A DNA stretch of 50,720 bases, from NCBI GenBank assembly GCA_947626525.1, contig CANQSM010000011.1, positions 1 to 50,720 of the forward strand, written 5' to 3'. The translations under genes were made by a program, and so were the position numbers. Position 1 is the stretch's first letter. Each line of letters starts with the position of its first letter. The notes below the pieces were generated by a model. It was not told the DNA's origin, ran no database searches, and worked only from the letters and a program-made list of their open reading frames with translations. This stretch comes from an uncultured Phocaeicola sp. (GTDB lineage Bacteria; Bacteroidota; Bacteroidia; Bacteroidales; Bacteroidaceae). This document shows, piece after piece, positions 1-37,934 of the stretch.

Positions 1-66
1 TATGATGGGAAACTATCATGTACGGTTCTTAGGGGGGAAAGCACCCGTAAGGGTGCCGACCTACCC
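1..66 (+). mobile_element. 3' end of a group II intron (domains V and VI)
   Basis: Bases 1-30 match most of a group II intron domain V hairpin: a TATGAT arm, a GGAAAC loop, an ATCATGTACGG arm and the TTCTT exit. Domain VI follows as GCACCC, loop GTAA, GGGTGC (41-56) and then a CGACCTAC tail that would carry the branch-point A. The rest of the intron, including any reverse transcriptase, lies left of the window. The exact splice boundary is uncertain and falls between about 64 and 69. The intron sits inside the coupling-protein gene that follows, in the same orientation. Confidence 0.7.
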
Positions 67-1496
67 GATCCGACACTCGCCACGAAGCTCTACTATCACT
101 ACCTGAAGAACAAGAACGCCAAGGACAGCAAGATGCCCAACGGCATGAAGTTCAACATTATCAACTTTGTCGATGTGGAGTATTCTCGCCGTGTGAACCC
201 CATCCAGTTGAAGTACATCAACAACCTTGCCGCAGCGAGCGAGACCGCCGAGACCCTGCTTGCAGCGACCAGTTCTTCCAGACCTCTGCCGTCAACTTCC
301 TTGCCGCCTGCATCTATTTCTTCTGCAACTACGGCAAAGAACCCTACGACAAGGACGGCAAGATGCTGATTGCCGAGCGGCGTGAAGATCCGAAGACGAG
401 GAGGCTGATAGCCACAGGACGGGTGTTCGACCGTACGGGAGCGGAGGTGCAGCCCGCCTATTGGTTGGGCAAGTACAGCGACATGCCTCATATCCTGTCG
501 TTCCTCAACGAGAGTTATCAAACCATCTTCGAGGTGTTGCAGACCGACAATGAGGTCGCCCCCTTGCTTGGTCCGTTCCAGACCGCCTTTGCCAACAAGG
601 CCATGGAGCAACTCGAAGGAATGATAGGCACCTTGCGTGTCTATACCTCCCGACTTGCCACCAAGGAGTCGTACTGGATATTCCACAAGGACGGTGATGA
701 CTTCGACCTGAAGGTCAGTGACCCGAAGAACCCGAGCTATCTGCTGATTGCCAACGACCCAGAGATGGAAAGCATCATCGGTGCGCTCAATGCCTTGATT
801 CTGAACCGCCTCGTGACGAGAGTGAATACAGGTCAAGGCAAGAATGTGCCCGTGAGCATCATCGTCGATGAGTTGCCGACCCTCTACTTCCACAAGATAG
901 ACCGACTGATAGGAACAGCCCGAAGCAACAAGGTGAGTGTCGCCTTGGGCTTTCAGGAACTGCCGCAGTTGGAAGCCGACTATGGCAAGGTGGGTATGCA
1001 GAAAATCATCACCACCGTAGGTAATGTGGTAAGCGGTTCGGCTCGTGCCAAGGAAACCCTCGAATGGCTGTCGAGTGACATCTTCGGTAAAGTAGTGCAG
1101 CTCAAAAAGGGTGTGACCATCGACCGTGACAAGACCTCCATCAACCTGAATGAGAATATGGACAGCCTTGTGCCTGCAAGCAAAATCTCCGACATGCCTA
1201 CAGGTTGGATATGTGGACAGACCGCCCGTGACTTTGTAGTCACCAAGACCGGCATGAACGGTTCGATGAATATTCAGGAGAGCGAGGAATTCAAGACCTC
1301 CAAGTTCTACTGCAAGACCGACTTCGACATGACGGAAATCAAGAAGGAGGAATCGGAGTATGTTCCACTCCCTAAGTTCTATAAGTTCAAGAGCAAGGAA
1401 GAGCGAGAGCGCATCCTCTACAAGAACTTCGTTCAGGTTGGGGAGGACGTGAAAGCCATGATCAAGGAGATACAGCAGTTTCGCACACTCACCTAA
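61..1496 (+). pseudogene. TraG/VirD4-type conjugative coupling protein, C-terminal part, frameshifted
   Basis: Coupling proteins are hexameric ATPases that feed the relaxase-DNA complex into the type IV secretion channel. Here only the portion after the nucleotide-binding region is visible. Frame 1 from 61 reads PDPTLATKLYYHYLKN and FVDVEYSRRVNPIQLKYINN. The reading then has to move to frame 3 near 262-265 (SDQFFQTSAVNFLAAC) to continue. A Walker B-like IIVDELP lies at about 863-883, followed by the RSNKVSVALGFQELPQL stretch typical of Bacteroidota TraG/MobC proteins. At the jump a short glycine-rich segment of the family seems to be missing, so a frameshifting deletion is likely. The downstream ATG at 363 is only internal. 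With a group II intron upstream and this deletion, the gene is probably non-functional unless the intron splices and the frame is restored. Family identity is confident and the exact subfamily is not. Confidence 0.8.
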
Positions 1497-4989: not shown

Positions 4990-7239
4990 ATGATGTATAA
5001 TTTCTTTTTTACTAGCCTCGGCAGAGCATACATAGCACATCTTGACAAACCAGAAAAGAACTCACACATAGACATTTTATGTGTTAACTCAACGTCTCGT
5101 TCCAAATTGATGGAATGGGATTCTGTTGCATATATTTCTACTACAGACTCTATTAGCAAGGATGTAAAGAATGCCGTCTTGAAAGAGGTTTCGCAGAGTA
5201 CAAATAAGGTTACCTTAATCTTCTCTGACAGTAAAAACGTAGGTACATCACAGTCGTACAAAGACCAAGAAGAGGCTGTCAATGTTGTTACGGATAAGAA
5301 GAATTCTCACATTTCGTTTAAATCAACAGACTCTTCTCATGTAGACATTCTTGATGTTGTTCTGAAATTTAAGGATTATGAATCAACTATCTCCTTTCAT
5401 TGTGTCCCACTAAACGATATGTACAATGTAGTCTTGGACTTTGGCTCGGAAGCAAGCCAAATGCTCATTAGTAAGAACAATCCTGATTCTGCTATTGTAC
5501 CCGAAAAAGTGTTTGCAAATACTTTATCACACTTTTATAACATTCAAAGAGTCAAAGGTGATCGAGTATATGATCAACAGGATGAAGACGAAAAGCTATT
5601 CCGCAGCGTATTCTATTTAAAGAAGAACGCAAAAATGTCAGATTCATTCGAATACGACAGACCTTCAAGAGACGATTCCTTTTTCAGTTTTATGTCCAAA
5701 AGAACAGAAAGCCATGAAGGTAGAATACCAAATATCAAAATCGCATACCTCACAGGTGCTATCGTCAATGAAGTAAACGATATGCAAACTTTACATAGAG
5801 GAATTGTTTCAAGGTTTTTACATGAGGCAATCTATCGTATTAGCGAAATTCATAAGAACAAAACTAATAAGGTTGGCATATACTTCACTGTTTTATTACC
5901 AAATGTAATGCCTCAGAACGCAGTATCTTCATTCTTGGATAACATGCGACGTGTTGCTAACAGTAGCGAGTTCATAGAGGCAAATGGCAGCCCATTACAA
6001 ATAGAATGTATAAATGTAAGCAGCTGCTCAGAGAGTGATGCTTCTTTCCTTGAATGCCTGCATCAGGCTGCACTACCTGGTTCCCAAAATAAGATGAAAG
6101 TAATGCCAGGTAAAAGATACTTGATTATCGACATTGGTAAAGGTACGACCGATTTTTCTCTTGTTAAATTATCCAGCGCAACTAGTGCCATCAGTGAATA
6201 TCGTGCAGGTTTCGTTGGTGCTGGTAATGCTATCTCTTATGCCGTATTTTCTGACTACATGAAAACCATTGCAGGAAATAAAGCTCAGACATTGAAAAAG
6301 AAAATGTTAAAGGCAGAACCGGCAGTGCTTTTTGAACTGGAAAACAAGATAGAAGATGCTAAGAAAAACTGGAGCAAAGGCAAGAATGCAACGACATTTG
6401 CTCCCATTTCTACGGTTGACAACATAACAGCAGAAGCGATTCTCGACAAAATTGATGAACTTGGTGTTATCAATGATTCACAAGGCAAAGTTGCAGAAAT
6501 GCTGAACCAAATATCTGAAAGAATTGTTGATCAGATACCATTAGATGGTGTTGATTATGTAGTATTCAGTGGGAGATCGTTTAAGTTTGTAAAATTGAAA
6601 GAACAACTAGAATCTCATCTACGCAAGAAGATAGGTAAGAATGTTGAGGTTTTCTTCAACTCTGAAACTGCCAAAAACGGATGTCTGTTCGGTCCACTCA
6701 GAAAAATAAGTATGAGCTTGGAAAGTCAGATGGTCGGATTCCCTCTTATAGTTGATATAACCAAAGTAAAGCAAACTGAACCAAATGGAGGCGAAACGTC
6801 TAATGGTTCTGCAATTCCAGTAATAAACGCAGATACGTTGAAACTTGAAAAAATCAATTCAACTAAGCAGATATTGGCTAAGGGTATCAAAATCATAACA
6901 GAATTGTTTGGTGACGATAATCAGCCCCAATCTGCAAACCCTCTAAAAAGTGCATCAACAAATTTCGATTCTGAAGTCAAAACATATATGACTAAGGGAA
7001 GAAAAATTAAGAATATTGATGGTAATTCTCGTATTATCATCTCTGGCAATGTATATACAACAGAGGATCAATATCCTTTAAGTAATGCAGATGCTCCTTA
7101 TTCGTTATATTTTGATGGAGAGGATTTCTACCTCAAACACGAATCTGGATGCCACAAATTAGTTATGCAAGTAAATAGGGGGGCTCAGAAATTGCTCAAA
7201 GAAAGTCTATTCCCTTATTCATTGACATTAAAAGATTAA
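4990..7239 (+). CDS. Actin/Hsp70-fold ATPase, large
   Basis: This 749-residue protein has no signal peptide and is probably cytosolic. Three signatures of the actin/Hsp70/FtsA ATPase superfamily are visible in the usual order: phosphate-1 (VVLDFGSEASQ, Asp150), phosphate-2 (LIIDIGKGTTDFSL, Asp381) and an adenosine-like motif (VVFSGRS, about residue 525). The first 140 residues are a separate N-terminal domain, and the last 180 follow the ATPase core. Such proteins either form filaments (FtsA/MreB-like) or act as chaperones. With a cell-wall synthase fusion two genes downstream and only 4 nt to the next gene, a cytoskeletal or scaffold role in directed wall synthesis is a reasonable inference. 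I do not recognise a named family. Confidence 0.7.
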   Translation: MMYNFFFTSLGRAYIAHLDKPEKNSHIDILCVNSTSRSKLMEWDSVAYISTTDSISKDVKNAVLKEVSQSTNKVTLIFSDSKNVGTSQSYKDQEEAVNVVTDKKNSHISFKSTDSSHVDILDVVLKFKDYESTISFHCVPLNDMYNVVLDFGSEASQMLISKNNPDSAIVPEKVFANTLSHFYNIQRVKGDRVYDQQDEDEKLFRSVFYLKKNAKMSDSFEYDRPSRDDSFFSFMSKRTESHEGRIPNIKIAYLTGAIVNEVNDMQTLHRGIVSRFLHEAIYRISEIHKNKTNKVGIYFTVLLPNVMPQNAVSSFLDNMRRVANSSEFIEANGSPLQIECINVSSCSESDASFLECLHQAALPGSQNKMKVMPGKRYLIIDIGKGTTDFSLVKLSSATSAISEYRAGFVGAGNAISYAVFSDYMKTIAGNKAQTLKKKMLKAEPAVLFELENKIEDAKKNWSKGKNATTFAPISTVDNITAEAILDKIDELGVINDSQGKVAEMLNQISERIVDQIPLDGVDYVVFSGRSFKFVKLKEQLESHLRKKIGKNVEVFFNSETAKNGCLFGPLRKISMSLESQMVGFPLIVDITKVKQTEPNGGETSNGSAIPVINADTLKLEKINSTKQILAKGIKIITELFGDDNQPQSANPLKSASTNFDSEVKTYMTKGRKIKNIDGNSRIIISGNVYTTEDQYPLSNADAPYSLYFDGEDFYLKHESGCHKLVMQVNRGAQKLLKESLFPYSLTLKD

Positions 7240-7243
7240 AGAA

Positions 7244-7912
7244 ATGAAGAAGTCAACAATACTATTTCTGACAAGTACTATTTTAAGCATAGTTGTACTC
7301 GTATTTGCAGTATATTATAGCCTACTATCAGCTGTTCCTACTCTGGCAATAGTAGTTGGTGTTTCTTTATACACTCCTTTATGCTTAGTTCAGTTAGGGT
7401 TGTTATTTAGAAGCTTAGAAACTAAGCCGGAAAAAGAAATAATCATTAAAGAAGTTGTTCCCGAACCTTCAAAAATATCATCAGCTGTACCTGAGACAAC
7501 AACTCCATTAGTAGTCACAGACACCATACACGAAAAATGGTCGAAGGCAATGTATGATATGTTTGCTAAAAAGTGGACTGATATTTTTTCTAACGCAACA
7601 TATCCTGCAGATAAAGCAACAAGAGCAGAGATAAGTGTAGAGCTGTGGAAAATCGCTTCACTCACAATGGATTATTTGTTAGTAGTTAACAATGATCCAA
7701 ATGCATTAAAAAGAAATCGTGAAATTACAAATGCTGTAGTTGAAGGGAAGGATATAATAAACGACGTTGAATTAAAAGAGTTTTTCCAAGATCCAACAAG
7801 CGTACAGCAGAAGGTACTGATAATAAACGATATACTATCAGCTCAATTAGCTGCAAAACAGTCTTTTGATATTCCTGTCTTTGGCTATAAAGTTGAATTA
7901 GGCAAAAAATAA
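7244..7912 (+). CDS. Small two-helix membrane protein of the envelope operon
   Basis: This 222-residue protein starts 4 nt after the ATPase gene. Residues 5-28 and about 32-53 form two transmembrane helices. The rest is a soluble, mostly helical domain with tryptophans (EKWSKAMYDMFAKKWTDIF) and no motif I recognise. The gene order (cytosolic ATPase, this protein, then the wall-synthase fusion 9 nt on) suggests it bridges the ATPase to the membrane enzyme. That role is inferred from context only. Confidence 0.6.
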   Translation: MKKSTILFLTSTILSIVVLVFAVYYSLLSAVPTLAIVVGVSLYTPLCLVQLGLLFRSLETKPEKEIIIKEVVPEPSKISSAVPETTTPLVVTDTIHEKWSKAMYDMFAKKWTDIFSNATYPADKATRAEISVELWKIASLTMDYLLVVNNDPNALKRNREITNAVVEGKDIINDVELKEFFQDPTSVQQKVLIINDILSAQLAAKQSFDIPVFGYKVELGKK

Positions 7913-20913: not shown

Positions 20914-21594
20914 ATGAAAACTTATAAATATCATATAGGTATATTATTCCTAACAATACTTCTTGTTTTAACGGTACCTTATGCATGGAAGTTAGTACAG
21001 ATATTATTCTTTCCTAAGCATGTTAAGATATGGCAGCAACTATCCTTGTTCCAATGGGTTGCTATAGGATTCGTTGGGTATTCTTTCATGAGACGATTTC
21101 TAAACAAGAATGCCTTATGGCTTGAGACTTTCACGCATGAACTGACACATATTGTTGTGGCAATGCTATTCCTTCGTAAGGTGCATTCTTTCCATGCAGA
21201 AGAAGGTTCTGGTGTAGTATATACGAGAGGACAATCAAATAACATGATTGCACCAATGGCATTGGCTCCATATTGCTTACCGATATACACTTTCCTGTTA
21301 TTATCTGTACGATGTCTAATGAACTTTCACGGAATGTGGATATTTGATATAATAATAGGTGTAAGCCTGTCTTTTCATATAAATTGCTTTATTCATCAAA
21401 CTGGTAAATATCAAACCGATATAAATCAATACCCATTGTTGTTTTCATATCTGTTTATATACGTTGCTCGACTAATTAACAGCTGTATTATACTTGTGGC
21501 ATTCTTCCCTCATTACAATGTGTTTACGTCATTCTGGAGATTGTTGAATGCTCAGTATGACAACATTATATATTTCTGGTCGCTTCTTTTTTGA
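20914..21594 (+). CDS. Polytopic membrane protein with HExxH motif (M50-like)
   Basis: It starts directly after the pgpA stop. This 226-residue protein has about six hydrophobic segments. ETFTHELTHIVVAMLF holds HELTH, a zinc-metalloprotease HExxH motif next to the membrane, as in site-2-protease-like (M50/M50B) families. A second conserved Asp-containing segment of the true S2P family was not recognised, so activity is uncertain. In this envelope island it could do regulated intramembrane cleavage, which would interest the nearby anti-sigma factor, but there is no direct evidence. Confidence 0.55.
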   Translation: MKTYKYHIGILFLTILLVLTVPYAWKLVQILFFPKHVKIWQQLSLFQWVAIGFVGYSFMRRFLNKNALWLETFTHELTHIVVAMLFLRKVHSFHAEEGSGVVYTRGQSNNMIAPMALAPYCLPIYTFLLLSVRCLMNFHGMWIFDIIIGVSLSFHINCFIHQTGKYQTDINQYPLLFSYLFIYVARLINSCIILVAFFPHYNVFTSFWRLLNAQYDNIIYFWSLLF

Positions 21595-21599
21595 TTTAT

Positions 21600-22409
21600 A
21601 TGGCAAAAAAATATCGGAGAAAGTCAAGAAAAAAACGAAATAAAGGGTTATTTTATTGCATTAAAAGGAGATATAAAAAATTCCTACGCTGTATTCGACC
21701 ATTGTCTATATGTATATTGTGTGTTACCGTATTTTGTGCTATATGGCATCTTTATAATAATATAAAAATTGCTTATCCACAGAAAGAACGTTCAACAATT
21801 TTATCAGATGACTATAATGGTATAGACGTTTCTAAGTATCAAGGAAAGATCGACTGGGAAAAAGTCGCTTCTGACCCCAAAATACAATTTGTATATATAA
21901 AGGCAACTGAAGGTGCGAGGCAAGTAGATAATAAGTATCATGATTATGTGGATGATGCAAGAAAAGAAGGCCTCAAGATAGGTAGCTATCATTATTTCAT
22001 CGGCAGAAAATCTGCGAAAGACCAGTTCCGCAATTTTAAGAAGCATATAGACAAACACACGCAGGATTTGATTCCAATGGTTGATGTTGAAGAAGCAGGA
22101 AATAGCTCTATTTCTAGAGACGAACTCCAACGTAATTTGAATGAATTCATGCAACTTGTTAAATCAGAGTATGGCAAATATCCTCTACTGTACAGTCAAT
22201 ATGGTTTTTACAAGGAAAAATTATCTCCTGAATTTGATAAATACTTCCTCTTTATTGCCAGATATGGAAAGAATCCACCGACTCTTTACAGCACTGGGAA
22301 ACACAATATTTGGCAATACACTGAGAAAGGCGAGATCCTTGGTATCAAAGGATATGTTGATTTGGATCGTTTTTGTAATGGTACATCATTGTCTGACATA
22401 GAACTCTAA
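21600..22409 (+). CDS. Membrane-anchored GH25 lysozyme
   Basis: The start is placed at ATG 21600, with TTG 21591 also in frame. A very basic N-terminus and one transmembrane helix (about residues 33-50) anchor the enzyme in the inner membrane facing the periplasm. The GH25 fold is clear: YNGIDVSKYQGKIDWEKV, then FVYIKATEG, YHYFIG and the catalytic DVE in LIPMVDVEEAG, ending with the IWQYT strand. GH25 muramidases cut peptidoglycan between MurNAc and GlcNAc. It fits the wall-remodelling theme of the island. It is 5 nt from the upstream gene, so probably in one operon with pgpA. Confidence 0.85.
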   Translation: MAKKYRRKSRKKRNKGLFYCIKRRYKKFLRCIRPLSICILCVTVFCAIWHLYNNIKIAYPQKERSTILSDDYNGIDVSKYQGKIDWEKVASDPKIQFVYIKATEGARQVDNKYHDYVDDARKEGLKIGSYHYFIGRKSAKDQFRNFKKHIDKHTQDLIPMVDVEEAGNSSISRDELQRNLNEFMQLVKSEYGKYPLLYSQYGFYKEKLSPEFDKYFLFIARYGKNPPTLYSTGKHNIWQYTEKGEILGIKGYVDLDRFCNGTSLSDIEL

Positions 22410-22521: not shown

Positions 22522-25323
22522 ATGGAATTTATGAAACAATCAAAATCATCTTTAAGAAATAGATTTTTTTATGTTATAATGGGAATACTTGTTGCTCTTC
22601 CCATGGGAATCACACATGCACAAACTAATCCATACAGATATGGTTCGCCTCACTATTGGATGGCACAATCAACATTGCACATTACTGATGGCAAATTTGA
22701 TATAGCTTACGAAGACTTGCAGAAAGCGAGAAAAGGCTATAAGGACATCGGAGATATTTCGTTTCAAGTAAATGCTATTGGAGCTATGGCTCTGCTAAAA
22801 TCCAATATGGGTGAATGGTCATTGGCTCAGCAACATTTTCAGGAAGCATTGGAGATTGCTAAGGAAGCAAAAGATGAAATGTCTATTTCAAGGACTTTGG
22901 TTGAAATCATCAAATTCAGTAAAGGAATCTCAGATATGAATGGATATAACCATTTTGTAGCTGAATTAGACTCCCTTTGCCGTAAGTCCTCCTCTGCAAT
23001 AGTAAAGACATATTATCACACTTACTGGTCAAATGAATATGTCCTACGACAAGAATACCAAATGGCGGAAAACCATTTAAGAAAATGTTGGGATGCCATG
23101 CAGGAGTTACCATTTATGGAAAGAGAGCAGGCGAAACTGTCATATTACAATAATATGGTGTCTCTTTATAATCAGAGAAAAAATTATGGGGATGCTATTG
23201 AATATGCACGAAAATATGTTGAACAGTCGAAAGTAATAAATGGCAGAAATAGCAATTTGCATTTGCAGTCATATAGCGTTTTGGCAAATATTTATGCTGA
23301 GAATGGAGACAGTGTAAATGCTTTTGCCGTCTTGGACAGTATGGCGTGTGGAGTTGGACTGCCGAATCAAGACAAAGTGCTTCTTGCTTCATTTTACAAT
23401 CGCAAAGGTGTATGTCATACAAAGTTTAAGGATTATGAGAGAGCTTTGGCGTGTTTCGAAAAAGCATCAGAAATTCTGAAAGAAAGGCTAATAGAGGACA
23501 CTCCGTCCAAGTATGAGTGTTACCTTCATAGAGCAGAGGTTTTATACATGCAGAAAAAGTATGATGAAGCGTATGACTCATATATGAATTGTATGCAAGC
23601 CTGTAGGAATAAATATGGCGAGAGCTCGGGTAATTACTATCAGGCTTTATTTACATTGGCAAGTATTAATGCCGAAAGAGGAAATGTTGCAGAAGCAGAC
23701 AGCCTGTTCAATGTTTCAATGGATTTCTTGCTTTCAAACATGAAAACGTTATGGAAATATTCAACGCCATCACAACGAGAGCAGTTTTGGAAAGAAACAT
23801 TAAACATGTTGAGTGGAATGGCTGCCTTCTCTGTAAAATGCGGCATTGATAACAGCAGACTAACAGAGACTTGTTATAATGCCCTGTTGTTTTCAAAAGC
23901 TTTGTTGTTGGAAACAGAAAAGACAATCATTGAGATTATTACGAACGAGGGAACAAAAGAGGATATAGACAACTATCGTCAACTGATGTCTATAAATACA
24001 AGGTTGCTCGCTCTGAGATGTAATTATGAATACAATAAAGACGAAATAGACATTCTTGTCGTAGTACAAAGAAATCTCGAACAACAGTTGACTGTCAAAT
24101 GTCAGTTATACAATGACTACAATTCGTTCTTGGATATTGATTGCCAAAAAGTTAGGAAAAGTCTAAAAAAGAATGAAGTGATGATTGACTTTTCTGATTT
24201 TATGTCGGAAGATTCCGTTCATCAATATGTTGCATACATAATACGAGGAGAACTGGAATACCCATTGCTTGTGAAGTGTTTCAACCAGAACCAATTAGAT
24301 TCATTGTTGAATGGAGATGCTAAATATAACCTATACAATTATAAGTTCCACAAAGATTGTGCAACCAAATTATTATGGGGACCATTAAGCAGTCACATGG
24401 AAAGGGGTAGTACAATTTATTATGTTCCTTCCGGAATCATACATGAAATAGCATTGGAATCACTGCCTCTTGCTGACGGTTCGTTATTAGGTCAACATTA
24501 TAATTTCATAAGATTGTCATCCGCAAGAGAAATCGCAAAGCTCCAAACCCCGAATAATGTTCAAAAGACAGCTGCACTATATGGCGGATTAAAATACAAC
24601 CTGTCACCTCAAACACTTGAAGAGGAAAGCAAGATGTATGATAAGACAGAATTATCTTGGATTTATCGTTCGGAATATGGGAAAGAAGGATTCAAGGACT
24701 TAAGCAAAAGCAAAGTAGAGATTCAGAGAATAGCTCAGACGCTTTCAGAAAATGGTTACAAGGTCAAAAGCTACTCTGGAGTTAAAGGGAATACTGAGTC
24801 ATTTATCGCGATGAGTGGCAAATCGCCATCAATTCTCCATGTTGCTACACATGGGTTCTACTACACTCCTGATGAAGCAGACAAATATGACTATCTTAAC
24901 GGTTATACAGATGCTATGTCATTATCGGGATTGGTATTTTCTGGAGGCAATGCAGCTTGGCTTGGTAAAGAGATACCTTCTGGGGTTCTTGGTGGGATTC
25001 TTACAGCACGTGATATAGCAAATCTTGATTTCAAAGGAACTGATTTGGTAATGTTGTCTGCTTGCAAAACGGCACAAGGCAATGTGACTGCTGAAGGTTT
25101 GTACGGCTTACAGAGAGCATTTAAGAAAGCTGGAGCCAGCACGCTTATTTTGACTTTGTGAAAAGTTAGAGACCCAGTGGCAGAATCTTTTGCGACAACC
25201 TTTTATAAAGAGCTAATGAATCAAGAAGGCAATAAAAGGCAGGCATTTGAAAAGACAAAGAACATAATTCGAGAAAAGTTTAAGGACTCTTTCGATTGGG
25301 CATGTTTTGTGATGGTTGATTGA
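22522..25323 (+). pseudogene. Secreted TPR-CHAT protease with an in-frame TGA near the C-terminus
   Basis: An N-terminal signal peptide is present (start 22522, or 22531 for MKQSKSS). Residues 40-420 are TPR-like helical repeats and about 550-934 the CHAT peptidase domain, with His777 (HVATHGFYY) and Cys848 (LSACKTAQG). TGA at 25159-25161 (codon 880) replaces the Trp expected from the paralogue at 30470 (ALWSVSDKVA). The same frame then reads KVRDPVAESFATTFYKEL and ends in FVMVD at 25323, which matches the paralogue's end. The stop removes about 54 residues but leaves the catalytic pair. CHAT proteases are caspase relatives whose TPR part senses or recruits a target. Gene, paralogue and sigma factor share one island. 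Confidence 0.85.
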
Positions 25324-25395: not shown

Positions 25396-25430
25396 ACAAA
25401 TAGAAGTTGTGCCCGACATGAATAAGGGTG
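25396..25430 (+). promoter_or_regulatory. Shared GAAGTTG element, copy A
   Basis: ACAAA, then GAAGTTG (25403-25409), GCCC (25411-25414), an 11-nt loop and GGGT (25426-25429). The AGAAGTTG begins 36 nt before the ATG at 25438. The same element precedes 25969, 27856 and 36450. It reads as an ECF-type promoter (GAAGTTG as -35, GGGTNNAA as -10, 16-nt spacer) or as an RNA or DNA dyad. No TAnnTTTG promoter was seen in the 100 nt before it. Confidence 0.65.
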
Positions 25431-25925: not shown

Positions 25926-25961
25926 CATTATTAGAAGTTGTGCGCGACACGTATAGCGTAT
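25926..25961 (+). promoter_or_regulatory. Shared GAAGTTG element, copy B (with compensatory change)
   Basis: GAAGTTG (25934-25940) is followed by GCGC (25942-25945), a 10-nt loop and GCGT (25956-25959), beginning 36 nt before ATG 25969. In the other copies the arms are GCCC and GGGT. Here both arms differ in a way that keeps pairing, which points to a real dyad or stem. Confidence 0.65.
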
Positions 25962-25968
25962 ATGAATT

Positions 25969-26757
25969 ATGAGAAAGAAATTGTTATTGCTATTTGTTGG
26001 GATGTTTTTGTGTTTTCAAGTAATTCAAGCACAGAAAACATATCCTGTAACAAAAGAAGTAAAAGTAGAGAAAAATGGTTTTTGCTGGACTTTGTATAGC
26101 ACAAGAAAAAGTGTTAGTGGCTTGTTGACAGAAGGAGCAGAAGTTAATGGCAAAACATTGTTACCTTTGTAACGTGAATTTTGCTATATAAAGTTTAACC
26201 CTCTTGGTGATAGTGGAATATTTTCTACAGAGAAGAATACGGATGATGGCTTACAATACTATTTCTACAATCTTGATGGTGAGGAAATATATCAAACCGA
26301 TGATCTCTATGTCTTCCCTGCATATAATGAAGAAGAGGGACTGTACTTTCGGGACTATGATGATTTTAAAGAAGTGCTAACCCCAAAAAGAGATACCTCT
26401 GGGCGTATAGATTCTAAAAAAGTAAAGAATGAAAAAATACCGTTTCCTCTTGTAGCTTCTCGTAAATACAAAATAATAAGTACATTTATGGGTGAGGAAT
26501 CTCGTGCGTTTTCTGGTGAAGGTTATGTTGAGTATAAAGGAAATAAAATTATAATAAACCTTGGCTTCACAACTAAAGAGTATACGTTAAACCAACCTCC
26601 TAAACCTCTGTTAGGTGTGTTGGGCATGATTTTTGGAGCAATGGATGTTGTCTGTGATGGTGAAAAAGGGAAACTATCAATAGTTGAGTCGCCAAGTACG
26701 ATAAGTATTGAACCTATTGGTTTCTCAATGAATCTTGGGTATGAAGTAGAAAAGTAG
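25969..26757 (+). pseudogene. Secreted protein of unknown function, interrupted by TAA
   Basis: A signal peptide (MRKKLLLLFVGMFLCFQVIQAQ) is followed by a soluble domain that is cut by TAA at 26170-26172, codon 68. The frame then continues open for 195 codons, with beta-rich sequence such as YYFYNLDGEEIYQTDDLYVFPAYNEEE, to a stop at 26757. The stop is most simply a nonsense mutation, for example of a CAA or GAA codon. I recognise no family. The gene is preceded by the shared element copy B, so it is a likely regulon member. Confidence 0.6.
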
Positions 26758-27809: not shown

Positions 27810-27850
27810 ACAAAACTAAGAAGTTGCGCCCGTCACGGATTTAGGGTAAT
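27810..27850 (+). promoter_or_regulatory. Shared GAAGTTG element, copy C, before the sigma-factor operon
   Basis: ACAAAAC, then GAAGTTG (27820-27826), GCCC (27828-27831), a 12-nt loop and GGGT (27844-27847). The spacer between GAAGTTG and GGGTA is 17 nt, and AGAAGTTG begins 37 nt before ATG 27856. If it is a promoter for the ECF sigma factor of this same operon, the operon is autoregulated. Confidence 0.7.
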
Positions 27851-27855
27851 AGCAT

Positions 27856-28365
27856 ATGAAGTACCTCAGAATTCTATTTATTGGCATCATCTGCTGCTTG
27901 TCATTTCAAGCCATGGCTCAAAGCAATGGTGAAAGGACTACGTCTGAAATCGAATACGCAGTAAAACAGATTAGCAGAATCTGCCCTACTTATATGTGGG
28001 ATAGTTGGAGATTCCGAGACATTATGTATGAGAAGGAGTCGAATACAGTCTATTTCGTTATTCAACTGAAAAAATGGAAAAATGTCAATGAAAGCATCAC
28101 CCCTGAAAAAATGAAAGAGCAGACGTATTGGATAGTTGAGAATTTTAAGGAAGCCTATGAATCTCTTATATCCGATAAAAGTCTTTATTGCGATGGTGAT
28201 TTCATGCTTTACCTATCCGTAGGGACTTTGTTGCATAAGTTGGCAATGGCAGATGCCAATTTGCAGATTGTTCTTTTAAAGCCAGACCAAGAATGTATCA
28301 TTCAGAAGGATATACCAATGGTAGTGGACGGAAAGGATATTAACAGGATATTCAAAAAGGAGTAA
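27856..28365 (+). CDS. Secreted protein, first gene of the caspase/sigma/CHAT operon
   Basis: This 169-residue protein has a signal peptide (MKYLRILFIGIICCLSFQAMAQ). The mature part is a mixed alpha/beta domain (AVKQISRICPTYMWDSWRFRD, VYFVIQLKKWKN). I do not recognise the family. It directly follows element copy C and ends one base before the caspase gene, so it is translated from the same mRNA. It could be a substrate, inhibitor or sensor for the periplasmic proteases. The gene order supports a shared function but not which one. Confidence 0.6.
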   Translation: MKYLRILFIGIICCLSFQAMAQSNGERTTSEIEYAVKQISRICPTYMWDSWRFRDIMYEKESNTVYFVIQLKKWKNVNESITPEKMKEQTYWIVENFKEAYESLISDKSLYCDGDFMLYLSVGTLLHKLAMADANLQIVLLKPDQECIIQKDIPMVVDGKDINRIFKKE

Positions 28366-28366
28366 A

Positions 28367-29278
28367 ATGATGATAAAGAACATTGGGCATTACTTAACTA
28401 TAGTATGTATATATATCATGCTCACCGTGTCTGTAGCTGTTTCGGCTCAGACACGGCGAGCTCTTGTCATTGGCATCGGCCAACAGGAGGATAAGGCCTG
28501 GGGGAAGATAAACGGTGACAGGGATGTGCCGTATGTGATGGAGATGCTGAAGAACGCGAAGTTCAAGATGGGTAATGTTAAGAAGCTCGTGAATCAGCAG
28601 GCAACAAAGGCGGCTATCGTGAATGCCTTCAAGGCATTGGCATCGCAGTCTAAGCGTGGAGATGTGGTGTATGTACACTTCTCAGGGCATGGCCAGCAGA
28701 TGAAGGATGTGCATAATGATGAGAAGGACGGACTGGATGAGTGCTGGATTCCTTACGATGCCTACCGAAAGCCATGTGAGAAGGACAAAGGTGAGAAACA
28801 CCTCACGGATGACGAGGTGAACTATTATCTGAATGCCATCAGAAACAAGATTGGAGATTCGGGAAAGATGCTCGTGGTTATTGATGCTTGTCATAGTGGT
28901 GGTGCAACACGTGGTGATGAGGATGAAGTGGTGCGTGGTGTGGAGGACATATTCGAAGCCATCAAGTCCTTTATCTGGGGGACATCTGCGGATAATGGCA
29001 AGGCGGATGTAAATCCAAACGCAAAAGAGAATAAGGAAAGGTGGATTACCATCAGTGCCTGCAAAAGCGACCAAGTGAACATTGAAATGAAAAGTCCAGC
29101 TGTGGGCAAACTGACCTACGCAATATACAATAAGGTCAAAGAAAACACTGGGAATGACAACTGTGATTTCATCAGAAGAATACGGAAGTTTGTCAATTCC
29201 AAAACAGGCAGCAGACCTCAATATCCGGTAATGACTGGCGAGACCGATAGATTTAGAATAACAGACATCATACAGTAA
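28367..29278 (+). CDS. Secreted caspase-family (C14) peptidase
   Basis: A signal peptide (about residues 1-27) puts the enzyme in the periplasm. The caspase fold is plain: RALVIGIGQ as the first strand, then DVVYVHFSGHGQQ with His108 and MLVVIDACHSGGATRG with Cys175, followed by a long insertion and WITISACKSDQ. The acidic DEKDGLDE stretch near 120 is typical of prokaryotic metacaspase-like proteins. Length 303. Its stop overlaps the sigma-factor start by one base (TAATG), which suggests coupled translation. It is a candidate activator or executioner in the same cascade as the CHAT protease. Confidence 0.85.
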   Translation: MMIKNIGHYLTIVCIYIMLTVSVAVSAQTRRALVIGIGQQEDKAWGKINGDRDVPYVMEMLKNAKFKMGNVKKLVNQQATKAAIVNAFKALASQSKRGDVVYVHFSGHGQQMKDVHNDEKDGLDECWIPYDAYRKPCEKDKGEKHLTDDEVNYYLNAIRNKIGDSGKMLVVIDACHSGGATRGDEDEVVRGVEDIFEAIKSFIWGTSADNGKADVNPNAKENKERWITISACKSDQVNIEMKSPAVGKLTYAIYNKVKENTGNDNCDFIRRIRKFVNSKTGSRPQYPVMTGETDRFRITDIIQ

Positions 29279-29940
29279 TGGCAAAAACAATACAATTTCG
29301 AGCTCCCATACAAGAGAATGAAGCACGACTTGTAGCGGGTATGGCAGACAAAAGGCGGCGCACTCAGTACGAGCTGTACGCATACTGTTCCGATTACTTT
29401 TGGGACAACTATAGGGGTGTGTTCTTCGCTGAAGAAAATGCAGCGGCAGAGATACTACAGAACACCTTTATTGCCTTCTGGGAAAACATTGAAAGAAAAA
29501 AAATATATGTGGAGGATGGAATCGTAATGGGGAAAGACAACAAGCTCCTGAACGGCAGCATCCTCACCTACTTTATGAGCATAGCCCGAAACAAGTATCT
29601 GGAATATGGACGCGAACATCCTGTATATGCTGATCCTGAAACAGAATTAGGACGGTTGCTAAGGGCTGAAGGGTTCGACCCCAACGAGTATATAGACATG
29701 CTCTATGACTCGGGCGAGAACATGATGATTAACATCATTGCGGATGTCATATCGCATATGTCACCGAGGTGCAGTCAGATACTCACAAAGTTCTATTACG
29801 AGGAGAAGAAACTGGAGACTATCCTGATGGAAATGCCGACAATAGAGTCATACGATGCCTTAAAGACGAAGAAAAACAAGTGTATGAAATCTTTGCGAAA
29901 ATCGGCGAGGGAAATATACAAGAGAAAGATAAACTCATAA
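29278..29940 (+). CDS. ECF-type RNA polymerase sigma factor
   Basis: This 220-residue protein has sigma region 2 at about residues 35-115 (EENAAAEILQNTFIAFWENI, then SILTYFMSIARNKYLEYGRE) and region 4 at 155-215 (ISHMSPRCSQILTKFYYEEKKLETIL, then DALKTKKNKCMKSLRKSA). The insertion between helices of region 2 is longer than usual. It would direct RNA polymerase to a small set of promoters. The four GAAGTTG elements in this window, one of them heading this operon, are the obvious candidates. The anti-sigma gene follows after 12 nt. Confidence 0.85.
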   Translation: MAKTIQFRAPIQENEARLVAGMADKRRRTQYELYAYCSDYFWDNYRGVFFAEENAAAEILQNTFIAFWENIERKKIYVEDGIVMGKDNKLLNGSILTYFMSIARNKYLEYGREHPVYADPETELGRLLRAEGFDPNEYIDMLYDSGENMMINIIADVISHMSPRCSQILTKFYYEEKKLETILMEMPTIESYDALKTKKNKCMKSLRKSAREIYKRKINS

Positions 29941-29952
29941 AGGACTACAGAT

Positions 29953-30477
29953 ATGGACGAAAAGTTTCAAGACAGAATAGACAACTACCTGCTTAACCGC
30001 ATGGATGATGCCGAAAAGACGGAGTTCTTGCGTGAGGTGGAACAAGATGAAGAGAAGAAGGAACAACTGGAGTTTACACAGGACGTGAAGGACTCTATCC
30101 GTAGCCGCGAGGAGAAACTACAGGCTCTAAAACAGTTCCAACGACAGTATGAACAAGAACGAAAAACTGCTGCTTATCATGCTACAGGTACTAAACAAGC
30201 AGCATGTTATTGTCCTGCTCCAAAGGTTGCAGCAACAGAGCCAGTGCGGTCAAAGAAGAAGATATGGCTGTGGATTTCTGGTGTGGCAGCTGTGCTTGTT
30301 GTAGGCTTCCTTGCCATCAAGCCAATGTTTGATTATGAGTCATCTCCTAACTATAATGGGGCACCTATGGAGCAGATGCGTGGAGGGGATGAAGTGTTCA
30401 GCCCTGCCCCAGCAGACAGTACGGACAACGATACCATAAAGTATAATATCGAGAAGAAAGTAAATACAGATGAATAG
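29953..30477 (+). CDS. Single-pass membrane anti-sigma factor
   Basis: This 174-residue protein has a cytosolic N-terminal region whose start (IDNYLLNRMDDAEKTEFLREVEQDEE) is typical of Bacteroidota anti-sigma proteins. A basic stretch and one transmembrane helix follow (about 104-123, WLWISGVAAVLVVGFLAI), then a periplasmic tail of about 51 residues. It should hold the sigma factor at the membrane. The tail is exposed to the secreted caspase and CHAT protease encoded on each side, so cleavage there would be a natural trigger. It overlaps the next start by 8 nt. I saw no zinc-binding (ZAS) motif. Confidence 0.75.
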   Translation: MDEKFQDRIDNYLLNRMDDAEKTEFLREVEQDEEKKEQLEFTQDVKDSIRSREEKLQALKQFQRQYEQERKTAAYHATGTKQAACYCPAPKVAATEPVRSKKKIWLWISGVAAVLVVGFLAIKPMFDYESSPNYNGAPMEQMRGGDEVFSPAPADSTDNDTIKYNIEKKVNTDE

Positions 30478-33400
30478 AATCATAGTATTCGCATTGATGC
30501 TTTTCTGCATGACAATGCAGATAGAAGCCCAGACCCTGTCAGAGGAAGAAGTGACAGCAAAAATGTATCAGGCATTTGAGCTAAACAAAGCCGGCAAGAA
30601 GGCAGAAGCACTTGAGTTGTTTCTTATTGTTGGAGAGAATACCAAGCAGCAACGCAACGAAGGCGAGCGGCAAGTGTACGTGTGCAGTCAGACGATGGCA
30701 TGTCAGTGTTATGAACTGCTTGGCAGGTATCAAGAAGGGTATCTCTTAGGAAAGAGTTTGCTTCAAGGTAAGTTGAATGATGAGGAAAGGAAAGATGTCG
30801 GTCATCTCTATGCTATGAATGGCTATATGTATGCTTGCGAATTTATCCAGCGCGATGAAAAAGGACGTGCCGATTATAAGCGTGGGAGGGAACTCATATC
30901 AGAAATACTTCCCTATTCTGACGGTCAGGTAAAAGAATATGCAGAGACAAAGATTCCTCTCTCATGGTATTTTGAAGGAGCGCAATATGCGATGACACAG
31001 AGTTATGACGAGGCACTTTCTTCGTATGAAAAAGCCTTGAATGGATTCAGGGATTTGGGTAGGGTATCTGAAGAAGTAGATTTACTCTCCGGCATAGCAT
31101 CGGTAAAAGCACACCTTTGCAAGTTTGACGAAGCAAAGCGAGTTTACTATCAGGCATTTGTCTTGGCAAATCAAAATGGCAAGGTGAACAAGCAGATGGA
31201 TGTGTTGAGGGAGTTGTGGTCTCTGGGCAATACCACGGGTGACATGAAACTGATACGCTCCACTTCGGCCTCCATGGACTCGTTGGTGGAAAAGGCAGGA
31301 GATGTGAAAATGAAATTTGCATACTACCATCAAAAAGGTGACGAGGCGAAATCCAAAGGTCAGTATAAATTAGCCGAGAAGTGGTATATAAAGGGCAAGG
31401 AACTAGCTGAGGGGGACAACAAAGACCCGTTTGCGGCAAGTAAACATCTGGCATATAACAAGCTGAGAAATCTATACATTGCCACGGGGCAATATGACGA
31501 TGCCATCGCATACGGTCGGAAAGTGTTGGAAGAATACCAGAAGCAGATCAATCCAGAAGAGGATGCGTATTATCTTCCGTATAGTCTGATGGCAGACATC
31601 TACAGACTGAAAGGAGACAAGGAGAATTGCTTTGCATGTATAGACTCTCTCTTTAAGAGTGAAAGCAGGATGAAAGAGCCTAGGGAACTATGTCAGATGT
31701 ATATGGTTCGGGCACGCTGTCATAATGGCTTCAAAGAATATGCAGCAGCTCTTGCAGACTATAAGAAAGCAGATGAAATGCTTGCATCGAAATATCCCCA
31801 AACGGAAGAGAACAGGATAATGCTCCTTGCATCCATGGGAGGAACGGAACATTGCCTTGACATGTATGATGACTCTGAAAAGCATTATAAGCTCTATGCG
31901 GATTACACAAAGCAACTTTATGGCGAAAAGAGCATGGAGTATATCAATGCGCTAATGATGCTCGCCAACGCAGAGGGATTCTCCAAACATCTTGATGCAG
32001 GTTGCAAACATTATACGGATGCCTCTTTCAGGTTGAAAGAGTTGATGAAGGAGCGTATTCCGATGATGAGTGTTGAGGAACGTGAGAGCCTGTGGTCTCC
32101 AGTCTCTTCACTGTTCACGATGATGACACCATACGCCATTGAAGCCAATAGATACCAGGACGAGTTTACCGCCAGTTGCTACGATGCGCTTGTCATGTCG
32201 AAGTCTTTTCTGCTGGAGTCTGAACGCTCGTTGTTTGACGTGGTAAAGAAAGAAGGTACTGATGATGATATGAAGGACTATATGCTGCTTACCTTGATGA
32301 AGAAACAAATTACGGAGTGGGAAAAGGACTATGCGCATCATGTCGACAGTATATTAAGTATGTCCCAACGGGCAGAGAAATTGGCGGTACGTTTGGCTGA
32401 ACGATGCCGTAGCTTCGGCAATATCACCCGTTTCATGGAAATTGACTATGCGGCAGTCAAGAGTGCTTTGAAGCCCAATGAAGTGCTCCTGGACTTTACG
32501 GATTATGTATCAGAAACTGTGGGGCGAAAATATGCAGCCTATATCATTAACAAGGAGGATAAATATCCATTGGTGAAATACCTATTTGCCGAAAGACAGA
32601 TAGACTCGTTGGGCATCACCCGGCCAGACATGTATTATCATCAGGACTATGCCCTGGATGTGTTGAGACTACTATGGGAGCCGTTGAAGGAACACATAGC
32701 AGAAGGGGCGACTGTCTATTATGTTCCATCACAATTACTGTTCCAAGTGTCATTGGAGTCATTGCCACTTGCTGACGGAACGCTTTTGGGTAGCCATTAC
32801 AACTTCGTAAGGTTGTCTTCCGCAAGGGAACTGGTAAAGGCACAGTCGCCAGTCTTGGCATCTGCACCGCATTCTGCCGTACTATATGGCGGACTGCAAT
32901 ATGACCTTCAACCGACAGCGATGGCTGAGGAAGCAAAGAAATATGACTTGACGGATTTGTTGGTGATGCGTGGCGATATGGTTCGCGGGGATTCCATCTT
33001 CTGTGAACTGCCAGGCTCCATGCAGGAGATTATGCAGATTGAGGCCCTGCTGAAAGCCAACAAATGGCATGTAACACCCCGAATGGGTACGCAGGGTACG
33101 GAAGAGTCGTTCCTCAGTATGCACAGTAAAGCTCCTCAATTGTTGCAGATAGCTACCCACGGATTCTATTATACTCCTGAACGCGCAGCTCATGTGGATT
33201 ATCTAAAAGGCTACTCTGATGCCATGATGCTCTCTGGTATTGTCCTTTCAGGAGGAAATGCGGCATGGAGAGGAAAGGAATTGCCTGATGGAGTATTGGG
33301 AGGCATTCTTACAGCCAACAACATTGCCCGTATCGACCTAAGTGGCACGGAGATGGTTGTGCTCTCTGCCTGTCAGTCTGGCCAAGGCAAGGCAACTTCC

Positions 33401-33637
33401 GAAGGTCTTTACGGCTTGCAGCGTGCCTTCAAGAAAGCCGGTGTCGGCACTATGGTCATGGCTCTATGGAGTGTCAGCGACAAAGTGGCTACAGAATTTA
33501 TGACCACTTTCTATGAGCAACTCGCATCCAAACAATGCCAGTGGAACAAACGTCAGGCATTTGAAAACACAAAGTCCATCATCCGAGATAGATATCCCGA
33601 CCCATTCCATTGGGCGGCATTTGTAATGCTGGATTGA
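30470..33637 (+). CDS. Secreted TPR-CHAT protease
   Basis: This intact 1055-residue protein begins with a signal peptide (MNRIIVFALMLFCMTMQIEAQ). Residues 25-560 are TPR-like repeats (for example AKMYQAFELNKAGKKAEALELF). From about 640 comes the CHAT region, with His897 (LQIATHGFYYTP) and Cys968 (LSACQSGQG), and the end reads DPFHWAAFVMLD. It is a paralogue of the interrupted gene at 22522, with nearly the same CHAT landmarks. In type III-E CRISPR a TPR-CHAT protease cleaves Csx30 to free a sigma factor. Here a CHAT gene overlaps an anti-sigma gene, suggesting a similar logic in the periplasm without CRISPR. It is the last gene of the operon. Confidence 0.9.
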   Translation: MNRIIVFALMLFCMTMQIEAQTLSEEEVTAKMYQAFELNKAGKKAEALELFLIVGENTKQQRNEGERQVYVCSQTMACQCYELLGRYQEGYLLGKSLLQGKLNDEERKDVGHLYAMNGYMYACEFIQRDEKGRADYKRGRELISEILPYSDGQVKEYAETKIPLSWYFEGAQYAMTQSYDEALSSYEKALNGFRDLGRVSEEVDLLSGIASVKAHLCKFDEAKRVYYQAFVLANQNGKVNKQMDVLRELWSLGNTTGDMKLIRSTSASMDSLVEKAGDVKMKFAYYHQKGDEAKSKGQYKLAEKWYIKGKELAEGDNKDPFAASKHLAYNKLRNLYIATGQYDDAIAYGRKVLEEYQKQINPEEDAYYLPYSLMADIYRLKGDKENCFACIDSLFKSESRMKEPRELCQMYMVRARCHNGFKEYAAALADYKKADEMLASKYPQTEENRIMLLASMGGTEHCLDMYDDSEKHYKLYADYTKQLYGEKSMEYINALMMLANAEGFSKHLDAGCKHYTDASFRLKELMKERIPMMSVEERESLWSPVSSLFTMMTPYAIEANRYQDEFTASCYDALVMSKSFLLESERSLFDVVKKEGTDDDMKDYMLLTLMKKQITEWEKDYAHHVDSILSMSQRAEKLAVRLAERCRSFGNITRFMEIDYAAVKSALKPNEVLLDFTDYVSETVGRKYAAYIINKEDKYPLVKYLFAERQIDSLGITRPDMYYHQDYALDVLRLLWEPLKEHIAEGATVYYVPSQLLFQVSLESLPLADGTLLGSHYNFVRLSSARELVKAQSPVLASAPHSAVLYGGLQYDLQPTAMAEEAKKYDLTDLLVMRGDMVRGDSIFCELPGSMQEIMQIEALLKANKWHVTPRMGTQGTEESFLSMHSKAPQLLQIATHGFYYTPERAAHVDYLKGYSDAMMLSGIVLSGGNAAWRGKELPDGVLGGILTANNIARIDLSGTEMVVLSACQSGQGKATSEGLYGLQRAFKKAGVGTMVMALWSVSDKVATEFMTTFYEQLASKQCQWNKRQAFENTKSIIRDRYPDPFHWAAFVMLD

Positions 33638-33662
33638 GATATACAACACACGAAATAAAAAG

Positions 33663-33701
33663 CTGCACCAGTCGACAAGTTTGATTAGGTGCAGTTTTTT
33701 T
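33663..33701 (+). terminator. Rho-independent terminator after the CHAT operon
   Basis: CTGCACC (33663-33669) and GGTGCAG (33688-33694) form a perfect 7-bp stem with an 18-nt loop, followed by seven Ts (33695-33701). It closes the operon that begins at 27856. Confidence 0.85.
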
Positions 33702-33765
33702 ATTGATAGATATGGTTACTAATCACGCTCATATACCATAAAGAGTATATCAAATATTATTGAAT

Positions 33766-34146
33766 ATGAGACAAGAAGAAATAGTGAATGAAATTAGAAA
33801 GAAATGTGGGCATGTGGAAATGCTACCGTCAATGGGTTGGCACTTTATCTACCACGACAGGCATTTCTTCTACATGACAGGGAGAAGTGATGGTATGATA
33901 CGTTTCTGTGTCCCTCATTTAGTAAAGGCAAATGAGTATGATACCGAATTGTTATCGGATGCTATCAATGAGACAAACAGGAACGTAAAATTTATCAAGG
34001 CTGTCAAACTTGACTGTGGCAGTGTTTCATTGGATTATGACCACAAGACGGTCTCAGATGAATCGGCAGATACAATTGTCCCTCATATCATCAATGCCTT
34101 GGATTTTGCTTCTAACTATTTACTCAACAAACTGAAAAGGACATGA
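33766..34146 (+). CDS. YbjN-like small protein
   Basis: The start is set at ATG 33766 (MRQEEIVNEI). A TTG at 33760 is also in frame. The 127-residue cytosolic protein resembles in layout the two proteins at 47800 and 48290: a first helix, a strand pair around an aromatic-rich stretch (HFIYHDRHFFYM), a strand (MIRFCVPHL), then a helix, two strands and a final long helix. This is the YbjN/type III chaperone-like fold. Its TGA overlaps the next ATG. The function is unknown. Confidence 0.5.
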   Translation: MRQEEIVNEIRKKCGHVEMLPSMGWHFIYHDRHFFYMTGRSDGMIRFCVPHLVKANEYDTELLSDAINETNRNVKFIKAVKLDCGSVSLDYDHKTVSDESADTIVPHIINALDFASNYLLNKLKRT

Positions 34147-36402: not shown

Positions 36403-36443
36403 TAACAAACTTAGAAGTTGCGCCCGATGACGTATTAGGGTAT
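36403..36443 (+). promoter_or_regulatory. Shared GAAGTTG element, copy D
   Basis: ACAAAC, then GAAGTTG (36414-36420), GCCC (36422-36425), a 12-nt loop and GGGT (36438-36441), beginning 37 nt before ATG 36450. Spacing is the same as in copy C. It lies about 2.7 kb beyond the CHAT operon, so the regulon spans several units. Confidence 0.65.
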
Positions 36444-37223: not shown

Positions 37224-37247
37224 CGACAATTTGTATAATTGAATAAT

Positions 37248-37934
37248 ATGAAGATACATTACGCGACAATCAGTGAAACGGGTAAGCGTCGGAAAAACGA
37301 AGACGCTTTCCGTATCGTAAATAGTGAGGACGGCAACCGTTGGTTGGCAGTGGTCTGCGATGGTATGGGAGGTCACGCCATGGGTGAAGTGGCAAGCGAG
37401 ACAGTTTCAGATGCTATTGTGGATTACTGGAAGAAACATACGGACGATCCTGACAGTGAGACAAAGGTGAATAATGCCTGTGCCCATGCCATGGGTGCTC
37501 TTGACAAGAAAGCCTACTCGTTAAACCATTGCCAAATGGGAACGACGATGGTGATGGCAAGCATTGAAGGCGACTCCGTGACCATAGCCCATGTAGGTGA
37601 CAGTAGATGCTATTTGCAGCGTCCTGATGAGGGGCTCCTCTACCAGACGAAGAACCATGTGCGGTTGGATTATGGTTGGGAGGTTATTGACCGTTGCTTC
37701 TTTTCCTATCATCATGAGGCAGATGTCCCGGACATCATGCAGTTCAAATTGAAGGCAGGCGACAGAATGTTGCTTTGCTCCGATGGCTTATACAAAAGCA
37801 TGGCACCCGACATTCTGTTGGCAAGGATGATGGACGAGAAACCGCTTGCCGATATCCTTGATGTCTATGATTTCATGTGCGAAAAGCAGGGCGATGACAA
37901 CTATACGGCAGTATTGATTGAGGTAAAAGAATAA
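37248..37934 (+). CDS. PP2C-family serine/threonine phosphatase
   Basis: The start is set at ATG 37248 (MKIHYATIS), with an in-frame TTG at 37239. The protein has about 228 residues. The metal-binding motifs of the family are present: RKNEDAF (Glu18, Asp19), VCDGMGGHAMG (Asp38, Gly39), THVGDSR-like IAHVGDSRCYL, MLLCSDGLYKS and DDNYTAVLIEV. It should remove phosphate from Ser/Thr of a cytosolic partner. No kinase gene is in the window. PP2C, vWA and AAA+ proteins commonly occur together in stress and conflict systems. Confidence 0.9.
   Translation: MKIHYATISETGKRRKNEDAFRIVNSEDGNRWLAVVCDGMGGHAMGEVASETVSDAIVDYWKKHTDDPDSETKVNNACAHAMGALDKKAYSLNHCQMGTTMVMASIEGDSVTIAHVGDSRCYLQRPDEGLLYQTKNHVRLDYGWEVIDRCFFSYHHEADVPDIMQFKLKAGDRMLLCSDGLYKSMAPDILLARMMDEKPLADILDVYDFMCEKQGDDNYTAVLIEVKE

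Follow-up and report, generated by a model that had tools for sequence, protein, structure and literature searches.

A conserved Arg-Gly in a membrane anti-sigma factor encoded beside predicted secreted caspases in Bacteroidales suggests a possible proteolytic switch for an extracytoplasmic function sigma factor

Why should genes for two predicted secreted proteases share a single run with those for a sigma factor and its membrane inhibitor? This question is raised by a 50,720-nucleotide stretch (the window) of contig CANQSM010000011.1 from an uncultured Phocaeicola sp. (GCA_947626525.1), in which five genes encode a protein of unassigned family, a C14 caspase, an extracytoplasmic function (ECF) sigma factor, a membrane anti-sigma factor and a TPR-CHAT protease. 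The answer that we tentatively favor, with somewhat less than even confidence, is that the run encodes a periplasmic caspase-type proteolytic switch for the ECF sigma factor, in which the C14 caspase would make the site-1 cut in the anti-sigma. The features concerned are the following.

27856-28365, + strand: gene 1, 169 aa, predicted secreted, family unassigned, accessory (open reading frame, homologue search)
28367-29278, + strand: C14 caspase of the orthocaspase type, predicted secreted, 303 aa; dyad H108/C175, predicted S1 acids D53 and D173
28934..28939, + strand: caspase Arg190-Gly191, candidate self-processing site; near-invariant, 15 residues past the catalytic Cys
29278-29940, + strand: divergent ECF sigma factor, 220 aa; weak profile matches, clear ECF relative in the equivalent position
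29953-30477, + strand: membrane anti-sigma, 174 aa, assigned from topology; short periplasmic tail, lacking the TPR tail of most relatives
30379..30384, + strand: anti-sigma Arg143-Gly144, candidate site-1 cleavage site, from conservation in the stalk
30470-33637, + strand: TPR-CHAT protease, predicted secreted, 1055 aa; catalytic H897/C968, Csx29/separase-like predicted fold

The five genes (27856-33637, all on the + strand) are as tightly packed as the first-pass annotation had described, with spacings in the open reading frame (ORF) list of exactly 1, -1, 12 and -8 nt. Pfam recognizes the caspase (Peptidase_C14, E=5.3e-21), whose catalytic His and Cys lie in FSGHG and DACHSG, and finds CHAT (E=1e-43) plus TPRs in the 1055-residue protein, whose corresponding motifs are ATHG and SACQSG. 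The sigma factor scores below cut-off with both Pfam Sigma70_r2 (E=0.044) and NCBIfam Sig70_bacteroi1 (E=3.7e-8, 33.8 bits against 126.4); we read it as a divergent ECF sigma because it aligns with a clear one in the equivalent gene position of locus L030 (TIGR02937, E=2.3e-17, above cut-off). No family match of the anti-sigma exceeds its cut-off; the best are DUF3999 in Pfam (E=0.0014) and antisigma in NCBIfam (E=0.0043, 17.1 bits with a cut-off of 100). A single hydrophobic helix is predicted in this protein at roughly residues 106-122, flanked N-terminally by KKK and followed by a C-terminal tail of 52 residues. PADLOC matches were to a caspase model (4.7e-20), to a TPR model (1.5e-5) and, weakly for the sigma, to C3a181 (0.0095). 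Signal peptides are predicted for the caspase and the TPR-CHAT protein by a simple hydropathy rule and for gene 1 by eye, in agreement with the earlier suggestion that all three non-regulatory proteins are exported and that the anti-sigma tail, predicted to be periplasmic, would face both proteases.

The run is not a chance arrangement, because its gene order recurs in other genomes. A second copy in the same genome, divided by a contig end between contigs C44 and C75, has a caspase, sigma and TPR-CHAT protein that are 87%, 92% and 86% identical to those of the window. Searches of 120 relatives at E<=1e-5, own genome counted, found the caspase in 13 genomes and the window sigma in 7; with a caspase profile at E<=1e-10, matches occur in 59 of 393 genomes of the order, taken to be Bacteroidales from its named members, some with larger or more distant caspases. 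At 80 named caspase loci, the best 80 of 396 confirmed, a sigma gene immediately follows the caspase in 51 and is no more than 7 kb away in 60, a CHAT gene lies within 6.5 kb in 62, and both are present at these distances in 45. The hydropathy rule assigns a signal peptide to 78 of the 80 caspases and to 59 of 60 long CHAT proteins. The most frequent order is caspase, sigma, anti-sigma and TPR-CHAT on the same strand; in variants the CHAT gene is placed first or is convergent. Conserved adjacency of all five families, raised in the first-pass annotation, is borne out for this four-gene core and fails for gene 1, which lies outside the core because, apart from the second copy (L045), a homologue search found it in only 2 of 149 loci. 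One is the window; the other is L055, whose homologue at 7190-7714 (E=1.4e-33), the sole one outside the own genome, sits upstream of the caspase cassette. The caspase has 114 matches among plasmid records, all below 60% identity, and the TPR-CHAT protein has none among phage records.

What could the caspase cut? Its pocket offers a first indication. In an alignment of 82 caspases, H108 is kept in all 82, C175 and D53 in 81 each, and D173 in 80. A PDB sequence search returned 11 matches, ten metacaspases and GSU0716, and alignment to metacaspases of known structure places D53 and D173 at the substrate-pocket positions Asp95 and Asp211 of TbMCA2. These residues sit in the S1 pocket of TbMCA2 (PMC4357240) and are important for the basic residues of its substrates, C14B enzymes cleaving after basic residues (PMC6426788; here and below, published work is cited from excerpts of the papers). 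The window caspase carries both features of the C14B orthocaspases and metacaspases, the His/Cys dyad and an acidic P1 pocket. It also contains an Arg-Gly of its own: residue 190 is Arg in 79 and Lys in 2 of the 82 sequences, and Gly191 is kept in 80, in a loop of variable sequence. Caspases are processed in the region shortly past the catalytic Cys.

The anti-sigma tails provide the second indication. They are highly variable (mean pairwise identity 23% in a 39-sequence subset) apart from one Arg, mostly in Arg-Gly, between the membrane helix and the TPR-like tail domain. Among 69 non-redundant caspase-linked anti-sigmas (from 108 rows, 103 after redundancy removal, across all groups), the stalk column holds Arg in 64 and the next residue is Gly in 59; the window protein has no row of its own here, being close to the second copy. 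Our conservation figures rest on this count, which replaces an earlier one on the 39-sequence subset that was not unbiased: from a list of 48 rows, the subset omits L057, L058, L070, L086, L096, L109, L117, L122 and L123, some of them divergent, and it includes a hand-added, short window row. Arg followed by Gly or Ser, R[GS], occurs within 45 residues of the transmembrane helix in 60 of 68 tails, one of the 69 being too short, against a mean of 20.8 and a maximum of 32 in 1000 shuffles. In an AlphaFold2 model of the long-tailed relative L099 (pLDDT 88.9), Arg135-Gly136 lies in a coil (124-141) between the transmembrane/stalk helices and TPR-like helices (142-262), and the Foldseek neighbours of this tail are TPR proteins (best E 1.8e-3). 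Short tails that lack the TPR domain, those of the window, the second copy (C75), G007 and L046-L049, nevertheless have the Arg-Gly, and in L048 the stretch is present twice. At L237, a single case, the anti-sigma lacks the Arg and the caspase has Lys-Asp at the position of Arg190-Gly191. At the level of sequence, the conserved Arg-Gly suggests a site suited to cutting by a caspase with a preference for P1 Arg. Because the idea turns on a single conserved Arg, it can be tested by one point mutation, and relatives with an Arg-Gly anti-sigma include the cultured isolates Leyella stercorea An906 (L049) and Bacteroides stercorirosoris DSM 26884 (L117). As a separate observation, a small lipoprotein encoded 5' of the caspase in L048 (1415-1690) carries VARGDTQ, similar to the anti-sigma Arg-Gly stretch, and could be a second substrate.

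The gene set and its order, the catalytic and pocket residues, the two Arg-Gly sites and the predicted folds are direct observations, as are the M50 gene and the element enrichment described below; from them we infer each cleavage step, the order in which CHAT acts before the caspase, and the signal that would set the switch off. At rest, the membrane anti-sigma would tether the sigma factor to the inner membrane. The secreted clan CD proteases would become active on an envelope signal, the probable sensors of which are the TPR part of the exported TPR-CHAT protein and, in anti-sigmas that have one, the TPR tail. After maturing through a cut at its own Arg190-Gly191, the C14 caspase would cleave the stalk Arg-Gly (Arg143-Gly144 in the window); this would be the site-1 cut and would take off the periplasmic tail. 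What is left would be finished by the M50 (RseP-type) protease, a gene for which is present in the own genome (PF02163 at G000:C16:6545-7822, E=1.4e-49), together with cytosolic proteases, and the freed sigma would transcribe its own operon and the neighbouring genes for small secreted proteins. A more elaborate version strikes us as doubtful: a two-step periplasmic cascade, used by Bacteroidota as a transcriptional sensor, in which the TPR-CHAT protein, switched on by an envelope signal, matures the caspase through its Arg-Gly, whereupon the matching Arg-Gly of the anti-sigma stalk is cut by the caspase. Were it true, it would amount to non-lethal caspase signaling, with zymogen and substrate sharing a scissile motif, that is widespread among gut bacteria. 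More generally, caspases may act as a switch that responds to the environment. Apart from this scenario, the window encodes an M50B-like membrane protein with an HELTH motif at 20914-21594 (25.2 bits against a Pfam cut-off of 26), adjoined by a GH25 gene (21591-22409); it lies 6 kb upstream of the operon, with no other evidence of a link.

Several findings weigh against the caspase as the site-1 cutter. At 20 of the 80 caspase loci no sigma match lies inside 7 kb. The stalk column is without Arg in the anti-sigmas of L098, L123 and L237, and that of L119 has Lys-Gly although its caspase has Arg-Gly; L071, with an Arg-Ser displaced in the alignment, is also counted among the five rows without Arg in the column. 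In the caspase itself, Arg-Gly could be structural because it is kept in most larger caspases (Arg in 15 of 18, Gly in 13 of 18). Further points come from 34 non-redundant control anti-sigmas of other ECF loci with no caspase near, 23 of which match a tail-domain profile built from 59 of the 69 tails with the Arg excluded. Among these TPR-tailed controls, R[GS] is present in 10 of 13 that have a CHAT gene near and no caspase, and in 7 of the 10 near which a protease was sought and none found; it is also present in 3 of the 11 controls without the tail domain. Three controls, L198, L202 and L040, were scored on over-long stalk strings, so that their positives come partly from inside the tail domain; their 45-residue windows contain PRG and TRAG, TRGS and LRGI. 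The presence of R[GS] is also alike in caspase loci (60/68) and CHAT-only loci (10/14; p=0.2). As a caspase-specific mark, Arg-Gly is therefore ruled out: the Arg marks the whole family of TPR-tailed anti-sigmas, since R[GS] is kept in caspase-free controls. In favor of the caspase, Arg-Gly outnumbers Arg-Ser more strongly at caspase loci (54:6) than across all controls (12:8; Fisher p=0.005), a comparison that is not phylogeny-corrected. Also in its favor, protease linkage follows anti-sigma type, with CHAT near 13 of the 23 TPR-tailed controls and 1 of the 11 others.

These patterns bear on who would cut the stalk. One alternative is that the site-1 cut is made instead by the TPR-CHAT protein, acting in the periplasm as Csx29 acts on Csx30, and that the caspase comes in later as an effector or amplifier. 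Csx29 is the best match to the predicted full-length fold of the TPR-CHAT protein, which has the Csx29 architecture. However, two positions ahead of the CHAT Cys, Ser predominates and Asp never occurs (92 of 105 CHAT ORFs tallied), so that no metacaspase-type P1-Arg pocket is predicted in CHAT. The Arg-Gly is kept, moreover, in L049, where no TPR-CHAT gene is seen on the 8.2-kb contig, and in L085, L086 and L097, where the listed neighbours of the cassette do not include one; we consider this alternative unlikely. Two relatives of the protease gene are worth recording in their own right, a TPR-CHAT paralogue in the window (22522-25319; 37% identical to that of the operon, with an in-frame stop near its end) and, ahead of gene 1 at L045 6369-6806 in the second copy, a short leftover piece of a similar gene.

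A second alternative, which we regard as rather improbable, makes both proteases outputs of the sigma factor for envelope defence or digestion and leaves the anti-sigma to be cut at Arg-Gly/Ser by an unlinked Arg-specific protease, for example of the clostripain or gingipain type. The R[GS] of the TPR-tailed controls with neither caspase nor CHAT found near would suit it, as would the proteases sharing one run with the sigma, an arrangement frequent for regulon members, but it sits poorly with the linkage of caspase and CHAT genes to TPR-tailed anti-sigmas, and the only TPR-tailed controls without even a loose basic motif (L039 and L199) both belong to the protease-free group. That Arg-Gly is a structural or binding feature such as a helix cap or docking site, with ligand binding rather than proteolysis freeing the sigma, is very unlikely: it does directly precede the first TPR helix in the L099 model, yet its presence without a TPR domain and its doubling in L048 form a pattern that TPR capping would not demand.

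The proposed caspase switch can be set beside several known systems. Type III-E Craspase (Cas7-11, Csx29, Csx30 and CASP-sigma; PMC10028731) similarly ties a TPR-CHAT protease, of similar predicted fold, to a sigma factor and an inhibitor, whereas the window has proteases with predicted signal peptides, a membrane anti-sigma as the inhibitor and an additional C14 caspase. The first-pass annotation had proposed a CRISPR-free, periplasmic version of Csx29 logic, which is supported in part. In favor of this, the fold best matches Csx29 and RAMPs (PF03787) have 0 matches in the own genome (99.96% complete) and matches in 4 of 14 control genomes, in a search whose sensitivity for Cas7-11 itself was not tested. 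However, the set is not a Csx29/Csx30 member, because its proteases carry predicted export signals and the proposed substrate sits in the membrane; by analogy, it may still work by a similar logic. An anti-sigma profile compared with PDB sequences, by sequence only, gave 35 matches at E<=1 (TPR, designed, chaperone and Nif11-type proteins) and no Csx30.

In the DegS-RseA-RseP pathway, a PDZ serine site-1 protease acts in the regulated intramembrane proteolysis of a single-pass anti-sigma. The window is similar in its single-pass anti-sigma with a periplasmic tail adjoining an ECF sigma (by homology and topology), its predicted stalk site-1 cut and its M50 gene. It differs in that clan CD cysteine proteases of the operon would take the place of the PDZ serine protease and in having one conserved Arg-Gly; Pfam finds no trypsin or PDZ match in the five operon proteins, the part of the genome in which such a protease was sought. 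The excerpts of PMC10028731 also mention this pathway.

Caspase homologues and sigma-70 genes share predicted operons elsewhere, as in the window: metacaspase/sigma-70 operons are reported in Myxococcus, other Deltaproteobacteria, Ralstonia and Fibrobacter (PMC3501461), a paper in whose main text 'CHAT' is absent and whose excerpts mention neither an anti-sigma nor a cleavage motif. An ECF sigma and a TPR protein have also been described in the neighbourhoods of caspase-EACC2 genes, for which a transcriptional output was proposed (PMC8195603). In contrast to the EACC1/EACC2 systems, the window caspase is predicted to be secreted, is paired with an anti-sigma and falls under the cut-off of the EACC1-type model NF047832 (30.5 bits against 140). 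A different Bacteroidales sigma/anti-sigma pair, with a barrel-type anti-sigma, acts in the envelope stress response (PMC9308784). Foldseek also matched the TPR-CHAT model to the transmembrane anti-sigma DdvA (PDB 8rw5/8rot, identified by titles), presumably via repeats, but global superposition is poor (TM-score 0.22-0.27). Among the matches listed from the open-licence PMC literature, none describes caspase or CHAT control of a Bacteroidota anti-sigma. If the switch is real, secreted bacterial caspases and TPR-CHAT proteins gain a job, Bacteroidota gain a candidate site-1 protease system for their anti-sigmas, and Csx29-like sigma control is placed in a CRISPR-free setting.

How might the freed sigma act? 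A 30-nt element lies 5' of gene 1 in both copies and 5' of two further window genes; its sites are listed here with the small-protein gene that follows the cassette.

27818..27850, + strand: candidate promoter or regulatory element; core GAAGTTGCGCCCGTCACG at 27820-27837, then AGGGT; gene 1 ATG 18 nt past the core; shared with gene 1 of the second copy
25403-25420, 25934-25951 and 27820-27837, with a variant at 36412-36441, and L045 6815: element sites, TARAAGTTGYGCMCGACACG..AGKG
33760..34146, + strand: small protein, also just 3' of the cassette in the C75 copy, G007, L048, L049 and L050

An ATG lies 17-18 nt past the core in the seven sites first compared, and the longest ORF starts 15-19 nt downstream of the element in 27 of 30 flanks (two from the own genome). 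The pattern GAAGTTGYGCSCGNCAYG has four own-genome sites with at most one mismatch, and AAGTTGYGCMCGNCACR has 31 sites in 22 of the 393 genomes of the order, compared with 2 for a reversed-pattern control. At the 80 caspase loci the element occurs in 7, with 8 sites, all on the cassette strand, against 0.029 expected on the assumption of a mean size of 3.45 Mb for the 393 genomes; it is absent from another 20 caspase loci and from 40 generic sigma loci. It is enriched near caspase loci and not exclusive to them. The idea that GAAGTTGYGCSCGNCAYG is a private promoter of the window sigma is undercut by the finding that only 4 of the 22 genomes bearing AAGTTGYGCMCGNCACR fall among the 59 with a caspase match, and we keep it as a candidate. 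The element may be the promoter of this sigma with a very short leader, a sigma dependence that we infer, or something more general, or else a mobile element. No partner site of an integron-like cassette was seen by eye, and an Rfam scan at the element gave no match. The secreted-protein gene 3' of one element, at 25969-26757, is apparently broken, its ORF stopping after 67 aa and a second ORF following.

Two further features were seen. The end of a group II intron (Rfam RF00029) occupies window positions 1-69. Downstream of the operon, at 37239-37934, lies a PP2C phosphatase gene, and a shorter ORF with a similar start is found in the second-copy region (L028 4306-4626).

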